This document shows positions 37,229-40,468 of a stretch of DNA of 64,000 bases, piece after piece. Each line of letters begins with the position of its first letter. Positions within the stretch are counted from its first letter, which is position 1. Source of the DNA: Acidobacteriota bacterium (GTDB taxonomy: Bacteria; Acidobacteriota; UBA4820; DSQY01); the NCBI GenBank assembly GCA_021787565.1, contig JAJYLT010000008.1, positions 1 through 64,000 on the forward strand, written 5' to 3'. The notes below the pieces were generated by a model that was not told the DNA's origin, searched no databases, and saw nothing but the letters and a program-made list of their open reading frames with translations. A program made the translations under genes and the position numbers.

Positions 37229-37669
37229 TCAGGATTCTCCGCTCGCCGTCTCGAAGTACCCCTCCACCGCGTAGAGCACGGCCTGATCGAAGAAGCCCAC
37301 GATCTGCCTGTAGAGGTTCAAAGCCTGGTAGAGGTTGACGGTGGAGTCGAAGATCCCCTGCTCGATGACGTATTGCCACAACACCGTACGGGCGAGCTGC
37401 ACGGCCCTGATCACCTCGGCCAGCGGCAGTCCCCTCTCCCTCCGACGCCTTCCCGTGGTCCGGAAGTGCTCGGCGATGACCTGGTGCCTCGGCTGGTCCA
37501 GGTAGGTGCCGATTTCCTGGTAGGCGCCGCGGACGTGGTCCAGCAGGAGGGGCGCAGGCTCGCGCACGTAATCCTCCATCCCCGCCTCCTTGCGGAGGCG
37601 CTCCAGCCAGCGCGCGGCCAGTTTGTCGGCGTTGCGCTCCACCACTCCGATGACGGTGTTCATGTCCAC
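37229..37669 (-). CDS. Stand-alone RsbRD N-terminal domain protein
   Basis: 146 aa, GTG start at 37669 (GGGAG upstream), alternative ATG at 37663. All-helical; WLERLRKEAG, an RRRRERGLPLAEVIRAVQLARTVLW block and a final helix match the RsbRD N-terminal domain, a sensor-type helical bundle found in stressosome co-antagonists and some histidine kinases. Here it is alone with no STAS or kinase domain, so it may act in trans. It lies 21 bp downstream of the selenoprotein gene and could share its transcript. Function unknown. Confidence 0.83.
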   Translation of the reverse strand: MDMNTVIGVVERNADKLAARWLERLRKEAGMEDYVREPAPLLLDHVRGAYQEIGTYLDQPRHQVIAEHFRTTGRRRRERGLPLAEVIRAVQLARTVLWQYVIEQGIFDSTVNLYQALNLYRQIVGFFDQAVLYAVEGYFETASGES

Positions 37670-37690: not shown

Positions 37691-37918
37691 TCAGCCGGCC
37701 CTTTTTCGGAGCCGGCGGATCAGTTCGTCCTCGTCGGGAAACTGCCCCGATCCCTTTTTTGAGTGGACCAGGACCCCGTCCACCACGACCTCGAAGACGC
37801 CGCCCGAAGAGCGGATGAGTCGGGGCTCCACGCCGAGCGCCGTCTTGATCCTGGCCGCCAGACCGGCGGCCTTCGGCTCGTAGTTTCAGACGCCGCAGTA
37901 TTCGATTTCGACCCTCAT
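37691..37918 (-). CDS. SelW/Rdx-family selenoprotein (in-frame UGA)
   Basis: 75 aa read through an in-frame TGA at 37888-37886. ATG at 37918 is preceded by GGAGGG. The product begins MRVEIEYCGV, then Sec11, then NYEPKAAGLAARI, giving the Cys8-x-x-Sec11 redox motif in the first loop of the thioredoxin-like Rdx fold. The rest matches the family: a helix, LIRSSGGVFEVVVDG, the strand VLVHSKKGSGQFP and a C-terminal helix. Reading frame and similarity continue without break on both sides of the UGA, and a bacterial-SECIS-like hairpin follows at the right distance (37853-37871). SelW-like proteins are small redox proteins of unclear substrate. Standard gene callers would truncate or miss it. Decoding depends on selABCD elsewhere in the genome. 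Confidence 0.9.
37853..37871 (-). promoter_or_regulatory. bSECIS-like stem-loop for selenocysteine insertion
   Basis: Perfect 7-bp stem GGCCGCC/GGCGGCC with a 5-nt loop GGUCU (37864-37860) that starts with GG. The loop begins 22 nt after the UGA, within the 16-37 nt range known for bacterial SECIS elements, and the conserved G in the first two loop positions is present. SelB binding would be the expected function. Confidence 0.75.
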
Positions 37919-37983
37919 GATCCCTCCTACGGCCCCCGTCTCCTCGCCGGCATACTCTCGGACGGAATCTGTTCAGGCCCGGT

Positions 37984-38044: not shown

Positions 38045-39340
38045 TCAGATAAGGTGGCGCTCCCGGGCCTCCTTTTCCAGCATCTCCTTGAAGGCGGGGT
38101 CCGCGATGGCGATGAGGGCCTTGGCGCGCTCGCTCAGGTTTTTGCCCCAGAGGTTGGTCGCTCCGTGCTCCGTGACCACGTAGTGGACGTCCGCCCTCGT
38201 GGTGACCACGCCCGACCCCTCCTTCAGCTTGGGTACGATGCGCGACATGGTGCCCTGTTTGGCGGTCGAGGGGAGGGCGATGATGGGCTTGCCCCCCTTG
38301 CTGGCCGCCGCGCCGCGGATGAAGTCCAGCTGCCCCCCGAAGCCACTGTAGATGTAGGTACCGATGGAGTCCGAGCAGACCTGGCCCGTCAGGTCCACCT
38401 CCAGGGCCGAGTTGATGGCCACCATGTTGTCGTTCTGGGCGATGATGAAGGGATCGTTGGTGTGATCCACGGGGTGGACCTCGAAGAGCGGGTTGTCGTG
38501 GACGAAGTCGTAGAGCTTCCGCGTGCCCAGGATGAAGGTGGCCACCACCTTGCCCGGGTGCAAGGTCTTCTTGTTTCCGGTGATGATCCCCTGCTCCATG
38601 GCCCGCACCAGCCCGTCCGAGATCATCTCGGTGTGGATTCCCAGGTCGCGTTTGCCCTCCAAAAGCGTGAGCACGGCATCGGGGATGCCGCCGATGCCCA
38701 TCTGAAGGGTCGCGCCATCGGGGATCATCTCGGCGATGAGGGCGCCGATCTTCCGCTCGACCTCCGTGGCCTCCTTCCCGCGGAGCTCCAGGAGAGGGAA
38801 GCTGTGCTCCACGATGTGGGCGGCCCTCGAGACGTGGAGGAAGGAGTCCCCGAGCGTTCTGGGCATCTGGTCGTTCACCTGGACGATGACAATGTTGGCC
38901 ATCTCCACGGCGGCCTTCTGGGCCATCACCTCCAGCCCCAGGCTCATGAAGCCGTGCTCGTCGGGAGGGGAACACTGGATCATGGCCACGTCCACCCGGC
39001 AGGCCCCGGTACGGATGGCCTTGGGGATCATGTGCAGGTGGATGGGCACGTACGCTGAGCGTCCGTCGTTCACCGAGGCCCGGTCCGCGGGGCCGACGAA
39101 GAGGGAGTTGTGGTGGAAGGCCTTCTCCATGCCCGGCTTGGACAGGGGGTCCTCGCCCATGAGGAGCACGTGGGAGAGGGTGACGTTTTGCAGTTCCGGC
39201 GCGCGGCGGCCCAGCGCCTCCATGAGGAGGAAGGGGGCGGCGGCGTTCCCGCTCAGCCACACCCAGTCGTTCGACTTGATGCGCGACACGGCCTCATCGG
39301 CCGAACAGAGCTTCGCCTTGTATCCGTCGATCCATGCCAT
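38045..39340 (-). CDS. Acetyl-CoA hydrolase/transferase-family CoA-transferase
   Basis: 431 aa, two-domain family I CoA-transferase like 4-hydroxybutyrate or butyryl-CoA:acetate CoA-transferases. Recognised blocks are SNDWVWLSGNAAAPFLLMEALGRR near the start, IQCSPPDEHGFMSLG (about 118-132), TLQMGIGGIPDAVL, SGFGGQLDFIRGA and the late VTEHGATNLWGKNLSERA. It exchanges CoA between acyl groups and acetate or similar. It starts 3 nt after alanine dehydrogenase, so the pair is an operon that may serve amino-acid fermentation or acetate handling. The exact acyl substrate cannot be read from the sequence. Confidence 0.92.
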   Translation of the reverse strand: MAWIDGYKAKLCSADEAVSRIKSNDWVWLSGNAAAPFLLMEALGRRAPELQNVTLSHVLLMGEDPLSKPGMEKAFHHNSLFVGPADRASVNDGRSAYVPIHLHMIPKAIRTGACRVDVAMIQCSPPDEHGFMSLGLEVMAQKAAVEMANIVIVQVNDQMPRTLGDSFLHVSRAAHIVEHSFPLLELRGKEATEVERKIGALIAEMIPDGATLQMGIGGIPDAVLTLLEGKRDLGIHTEMISDGLVRAMEQGIITGNKKTLHPGKVVATFILGTRKLYDFVHDNPLFEVHPVDHTNDPFIIAQNDNMVAINSALEVDLTGQVCSDSIGTYIYSGFGGQLDFIRGAAASKGGKPIIALPSTAKQGTMSRIVPKLKEGSGVVTTRADVHYVVTEHGATNLWGKNLSERAKALIAIADPAFKEMLEKEARERHLI

Positions 39341-39343
39341 GGC

Positions 39344-40468
39344 TCAGCCCTCCCCCAGCAGCCGCTTCAGGTCGGCGGGGCTGCTCGTGACGTGGCGGCT
39401 CACGGCGTTCCCTTCGTACACGTAACAGCCGCGCCGCAGATCCGCCCAGGTCCGGAGCGCCTCCTTGAGCCCCTTCTCCTGCATGCTCTTGAGGAAGGGC
39501 AGCAGGGCGTAGGTCAGGGCGTAGGTGGAGGTCCTCGCCACGTAGGAGGGGCAGTTGGGCACGGCGAAGTGGAGGACCCCCTCGCGCACGAAGACGCCGC
39601 CGGCCGGACCCTGCATGCGCGTGGTCTCCACGCAGCCCCCCTGGTCGAAGGAGAAATCGATGATCACGCTGCCCGGCCGCATGCGCTGGACCATTTCCCG
39701 GGTCACGATGATGGGGGCGATCTCGCCGGCCACCAGCACCGCTCCCACCAGGACCTCGGCGAAGGCGGAGAACTTCTCCACGTTCTCGGTCGTGGCGTGG
39801 GCCGTCACCACCCGCCCCTCGAAGGCGCGATCGATGGCTTCCAGCTTGATCTGGGAAATATCCAGGACGTAGACGGAGCAGCCCAGCCCCAGGAAGGAGC
39901 GGGCCGCGTGGTAGCCCAGAACTCCGGCCCCCATGATCACCACGTCCGCGGGAGGAATGCCTGGGGCTCCGCCCAGCAGGATGCCCATACCGCCGGCCCC
40001 GGTCTCCAGGAGCCTCCCGGCGATCTGGGGGGCCATCTTGCCCGCGATCTCCGATGAGATCTTGAGGACGGGCAGGGTTCCGTCGCCCTCCTGGATGATC
40101 TCGAATCCGATGGCCGTCACCCCGCGCTCGGCGAGCTTCGCCGTGTAGGCGTCACCGGCCAGGGCCAGGTGGAGGAAGGCCATGATGCCGGACCCCGGAG
40201 ACATGAGCTCCAGGTCGTCCATCGTGGGCCTCCCGATCTTGACCACCATGTCCGAGCGGCCGAAGACCTCCTCCCGCGAGTAGACCACTTGGGCACCCAC
40301 CCTGCGGTAGGCGTCGTCCAGGAAGCCCGCCGGTGCACCCGCGCCGCTTTCGATGTACAGCTCGGCCCCCATGGCCACCAGATCCCGGCAGCCGGCGGGC
40401 GAGAGGCCCACCCGGCGCTCGTCACAGTTCGGCTGAATCGCGCATTCCTTGGGAACACCGAAACGCAT
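39344..40468 (-). CDS. ald: Alanine dehydrogenase
   Basis: 374 aa, NAD-dependent interconversion of alanine with pyruvate and ammonia. The N-terminal VPKE (catalytic Lys), ERRVGLSPAG, the AFLHLA His and the Rossmann motif GAGVLGYHAA are present, as is the C-terminal DFSFDQGGC. Length and motifs match Ald rather than transhydrogenase alpha. It begins the operon continuing into the CoA-transferase. A candidate promoter (TTGCGG, 18 nt, TACACT) lies at 40665-40636 on the minus strand. Confidence 0.92.
   Translation of the reverse strand: MRFGVPKECAIQPNCDERRVGLSPAGCRDLVAMGAELYIESGAGAPAGFLDDAYRRVGAQVVYSREEVFGRSDMVVKIGRPTMDDLELMSPGSGIMAFLHLALAGDAYTAKLAERGVTAIGFEIIQEGDGTLPVLKISSEIAGKMAPQIAGRLLETGAGGMGILLGGAPGIPPADVVIMGAGVLGYHAARSFLGLGCSVYVLDISQIKLEAIDRAFEGRVVTAHATTENVEKFSAFAEVLVGAVLVAGEIAPIIVTREMVQRMRPGSVIIDFSFDQGGCVETTRMQGPAGGVFVREGVLHFAVPNCPSYVARTSTYALTYALLPFLKSMQEKGLKEALRTWADLRRGCYVYEGNAVSRHVTSSPADLKRLLGEG

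Follow-up and report, generated by a model that had tools for sequence, protein, structure and literature searches.

The minus strand of the 64,000-nucleotide stretch of acidobacterial DNA analyzed here (the window) carries, at positions 37691..37918, a predicted selenoprotein gene of the SelW-like/Rdx family, comprising 75 codons and a terminal TGA. The gene opens with an ATG at 37918, preceded by a Shine-Dalgarno-like AGGAGGG read directly from the sequence (37922..37928, minus strand), and closes with the TGA at 37691..37693 (minus strand). Codon 11 is an in-frame UGA (37886..37888, minus strand) at the second redox position of a CGVU motif, encoded as TGC GGC GTC TGA (C8-G-V-U11). Fourteen nucleotides beyond this UGA begins a hairpin with a 7-bp stem and a GGUCU loop (37853..37871, minus strand). 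The original prediction had described an ATG with a good ribosome binding site and a 75-residue Rdx-family protein with this CxxU motif, leaving the strand unnamed; each of these features is present on the minus strand. A plus-strand reading of 37691..37918 yields no Rdx protein. On the same minus strand, a gene for an RsbRD_N-like protein lies downstream (37229..37669; a weak match, below the family cut-off), and upstream lie genes for an acetyl-CoA hydrolase/CoA-transferase family protein (38045..39340) and then an alanine dehydrogenase/PNT family protein (39344..40468).

The product is recognizable as a family member across the UGA. It matches Pfam PF10262 (Rdx) over residues 2-72, a span that includes the UGA, with 71 bits against a cut-off of 22.6 (E 1e-19), and TIGR02174 with 60.5 bits against a cut-off of 34.2; similarity thus continues on both sides of the TGA, as had been proposed. 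The N-terminal CxxU redox motif aligns with those of homologues, which carry at codon 11 either TGA or, in CxxC forms, a Cys codon, so that the Cys-for-U homologues named in the original prediction as a comparison do exist. Because the UGA cuts the SelW-like frame into 10 and 64 codons, ordinary ORF finding splits the gene, and it is plausible that gene callers have overlooked it. The present analysis recovers it.

We searched the genome of the window, an Acidobacteriota metagenome-assembled genome (MAG; 77 contigs, 3.47 Mb, 98% complete), family by family for the selenocysteine machinery. All components scored above their cut-offs: selA (449 bits), selB (316 bits for the GTPase part, with the SelB winged-helix domain PF09107 also present), the selC tRNA-Sec (72.6 bits, anticodon TCA) and selD (342 bits). 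The claim that this organism decodes selenocysteine therefore stands, and with it the picture of an acidobacterial lineage that does so. The selD gene itself (L019:1474-2500; C66:13383) has one in-frame TGA, within the motif GAGUACK, and a 9-bp hairpin with a GUC loop lies 33 nt after that UGA. An EF-Tu match had also been flagged with one TGA, which proved to be the terminal stop of an intact gene.

A frame that goes on past a UGA could also arise if UGA were generally recoded, as Trp or another amino acid, or were leakily read through, in either case without selenium. The use of TGA elsewhere argues against this: of seven other well-supported window genes, none has an internal TGA and six end in one, which makes TGA an ordinary stop in this organism. 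Among the families checked in the genome, moreover, in-frame TGAs occur only in Rdx and SelD, in both at the redox Cys/Sec site. With the full selenocysteine machinery also encoded, we regard recoding or read-through as very improbable.

A second alternative is that an Rdx gene was broken by a nonsense change at its active-site Cys codon, or that the TGA is a sequencing error; TGA is, after all, one substitution away from the Cys codons TGC and TGT. The distribution of the codon speaks strongly against both. Close relatives ending at this codon would have refuted the original prediction; homologues from the same genus and the same family retain the TGA and read on, with 48-94% identity beyond it. 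The closest named relative, the MAG 'Acidobacteria bacterium isolate BP9.bin43', is 94% identical after the UGA, which assigns the window to the Acidobacteriota. Across a phylum sample of 396 Acidobacteriota genomes, Rdx was found in 115 and read through TGA in 105 of these, so the UGA form of the SelW-like gene is widespread among Acidobacteriota, and TGA occupied the CxxU position in 103 of 103 loci extracted for SECIS alignment. A cross-phylum scan, for which we used one genome per species and took the best 80 loci, extended the pattern to Desulfuromonadales, Planctomycetes, Eisenbacteria, Zixibacteria, Gemmatimonadetes and Verrucomicrobia, among others; in these 80 loci together with four viral contigs, the CxxU codon was TGA in 83 of 84 cases and TGT in one. 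The same TGA, flanked on both sides by a conserved open frame, is thus kept in more than 100 genomes of this phylum and across many others. Its conservation in independent assemblies refutes a pseudogene or an error, and selection on the downstream hairpin at the RNA level (see below) counts against them as well; we give these explanations next to no probability.

Possession of the UGA form also tracks the machinery. With selA called at E<=1e-60, the gene was present in 98 of 105 UGA-Rdx genomes versus 153 of 291 others (Fisher p 1.6e-15). Full selA went undetected in the remaining seven UGA-Rdx genomes, three of which are at least 91% complete; tRNA-Sec or selB is present in every one of the seven. 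The three more complete ones, G046 (100%), G192 (99%) and G139 (91%), encode UGA-Rdx, tRNA-Sec and selB; relaxing the selA search to E 1e-5 found none, nor was SepSecS found as a substitute. Their assemblies may have a gap, their SelA may be very divergent, or Sec-tRNA may be made by another route.

The hairpin of the window gene (GGCCGCC-GGUCU-GGCGGCC) has a perfect 7-bp stem, a loop 21 nt after the UGA and a core energy of -14.9 kcal/mol, and it lies where it had been reported, running from 37871 to 37853. The published bacterial SECIS model specifies 3-9 loop nucleotides with G in the first two, a stem of 4-16 bp, a spacing of 16-37 nt and a minimum free energy of at most -7.5 kcal/mol (PMC13188914, Fig. 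2A). The window hairpin satisfies each of these constraints, in keeping with the earlier view that its distance and loop G are typical of bacterial SECIS elements. Such structures are infrequent in the window: among the 1,455 TGA trinucleotides on its two strands, 22 (1.5%) are followed by a stem of at least 7 bp in the geometry of the model, and 7 (0.5%) by one that also has short spacing and a GG/GU loop. Downstream of the terminal TGA there is no SECIS-like hairpin, the best stem being 3 bp. Compared with the bacterial consensus and the E. coli fdhF SECIS, the window hairpin shares the loop size, the loop G, the stem length, the spacing and the energy limits of the consensus. We take its GGUCU loop to be identical to that of fdhF, and its stem sequence and exact spacing presumably differ. 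Single-window folding z-scores of the hairpin region are only modest (-0.9 to -2.4); it is comparative covariation that settles the RNA element.

We analyzed covariation in an ungapped alignment of 102 homologues, of which 67 remained after thinning at 90% identity. Significance was assessed against 2,000 column shuffles, which ignore relatedness; the thinned set gave the same result. Watson-Crick pairing exceeded all 2,000 shuffles at nucleotide pairs 21-27, 20-28, 18-30 and 15-33 after the UGA, and three of these four pairs (21-27, 18-30 and 15-33) connect two third-codon positions, that is, synonymous wobble sites. An example is the exchange of Ala GCC..Leu CTG for Ala GCG..Leu CTC: in the 60 rows that encode Ala and Leu at these codons, the pair is C-G in 46 and G-C in 14, with no mismatches.

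The loop is constrained too. Nucleotide 23 is G in every homologue, and the loop codon (codon 8, counted likewise from the UGA) is GGU in 44 and AGU in 42, together 86 of 102, the others being AGG (6), UGG (4), CGU (4), GGG (1) and CGG (1). Both favored codons are uncommon further downstream in the same genes, where AGU accounts for 14 of 280 Ser codons and GGU for 81 of 579 Gly codons. This bias agrees with what the published bacterial SECIS model demands of the loop (PMC13188914). Covariation at wobble sites, combined with a loop codon that is mostly GGU or AGU although neither is a common codon, points to selection on the structure of the RNA in addition to the protein. The covariation at synonymous sites supplies a clean and testable SECIS signature: a loop codon of GGU or AGU with paired wobble positions on either side.

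Three computational results, namely a family match that spans the UGA, a full set of selenocysteine genes and selection acting on the hairpin RNA, together support the reading that this is a genuine bacterial selenoprotein gene of the SelW-like/Rdx family. We assign this reading a probability of about 0.96. In the mechanism that we propose, the hairpin 14 nt downstream of the UGA at codon 11 would serve as a putative SECIS and cause this codon to be read as selenocysteine. This element would be bound by SelB carrying Sec-tRNA(Sec), the product of selC, which SelA would have charged using selenophosphate supplied by SelD. Translation would stop at the terminal UGA, which lacks such a hairpin, to yield a 75-residue protein with a CxxU redox pair. 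By homology to solved family members, this protein probably adopts a thioredoxin-like fold, and it is most likely a thiol/selenol oxidoreductase. The solved Rdx proteins Atu0228 (2fa8), SAV_2001 (3dex) and mouse-type selenoprotein W (2npb) belong to the same family (profile-search E 1e-23 to 4e-8); the bacterial structures are CxxC forms or otherwise longer, at about 103-108 residues compared with 75 in the window protein.

In eukaryotic SelW, the SECIS is located in the 3'-UTR. With known bacterial SelW-like selenoproteins (PF10262; TIGR02174 CXXU_selWTH) the window gene shares the CxxU motif, the family profile, a SECIS just after the UGA and the prevalence of Sec over Cys forms in Sec-decoding bacteria, and it differs in nothing essential, its particulars being the acidobacterial lineage and a lineage-specific neighborhood. 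Bacterial members have long been known, 48 having been described in Sargasso Sea data in 2005 (PMC1088965) and 10 in genomes in 2006 (PMC1794560), with the remark in that work that organisms containing Sec seldom have the Cys forms (PMC1088965, PMC1794560). The Sargasso Sea study took the CxxU motif as a sign of a redox function and cited an interaction with glutathione (PMC1088965). The original prediction accordingly overrated the importance of the gene, which is a well-supported further example of a selenoprotein type known since about 2005.

The gene neighborhood is shared among close relatives. In 7 of 7 family-level relatives examined, SelW adjoins the CoA-transferase gene upstream and the RsbRD-like gene downstream; wherever the contig extends far enough, alanine dehydrogenase precedes the CoA-transferase. 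This arrangement would fit a selenoprotein that works as a unit with these proteins, for example in redox protection or regulation. The order alanine dehydrogenase, CoA-transferase, SelW, RsbRD-like gene is conserved only within the bacterial family, and SelW homologues outside the family occur without these genes, which argues that SelW is independent of them; common descent alone may explain the shared order. A functional unit is thus unlikely, and the context yields no firm functional clue.

Rdx is single-copy in the genome of the window. Four other genomes, G245, G333, G046 and G001, carry second Rdx copies (L125, L126, L130 and L131, respectively) beside the main SelW-like gene. These form a divergent UGA-containing Rdx-like group that scores about 30-43 bits; in some of them, the FP motif is preceded by a longer insertion.

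Related genes also occur in viruses. Collections of plasmids and named phages gave no match to the SelW-like gene. Among IMG/VR contigs, 14, which fall into some seven distinct sequence groups, carry a SelW-like gene with an in-frame UGA and a short hairpin with an AGU loop. The viral loci are L230-L243 and L229, for example L241:9950-10222 and L230:9950-10198. No tRNA-Sec reached the family cut-off in the seven of these records searched whole, which may be fragments; with no viral tRNA-Sec detected, the host selenocysteine machinery would have to be borrowed. The phage hairpins are weaker, at about -4 to -7 kcal/mol, and in L233/L234 are not the predicted minimum, which makes SECIS function less certain in the phages than in the window. 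We consider it likely that several separate lineages of marine phages, including some that have T4-like replication genes, harbor SelW-like genes of the Sec form, with UGA and a SECIS-type hairpin, as candidate phage-encoded selenoproteins dependent on the host. Selenoproteins encoded by phages did not come up in the literature searched, which covered only a minority of subscription journals, and for this reason the phage loci could matter more than the window gene. They are related loci; for the window gene itself, nothing beyond the known selenoprotein type is supported. In L241 the SelW-like gene sits among genes for UvsX, a DnaB-like helicase, an ssDNA-binding protein, an exonuclease and ribonucleotide reductase, and in L230 it lies near ThyX and PhoH. 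L232 shows a synonymous exchange of C-G for U-A in the loop-adjacent pair of the hairpin.
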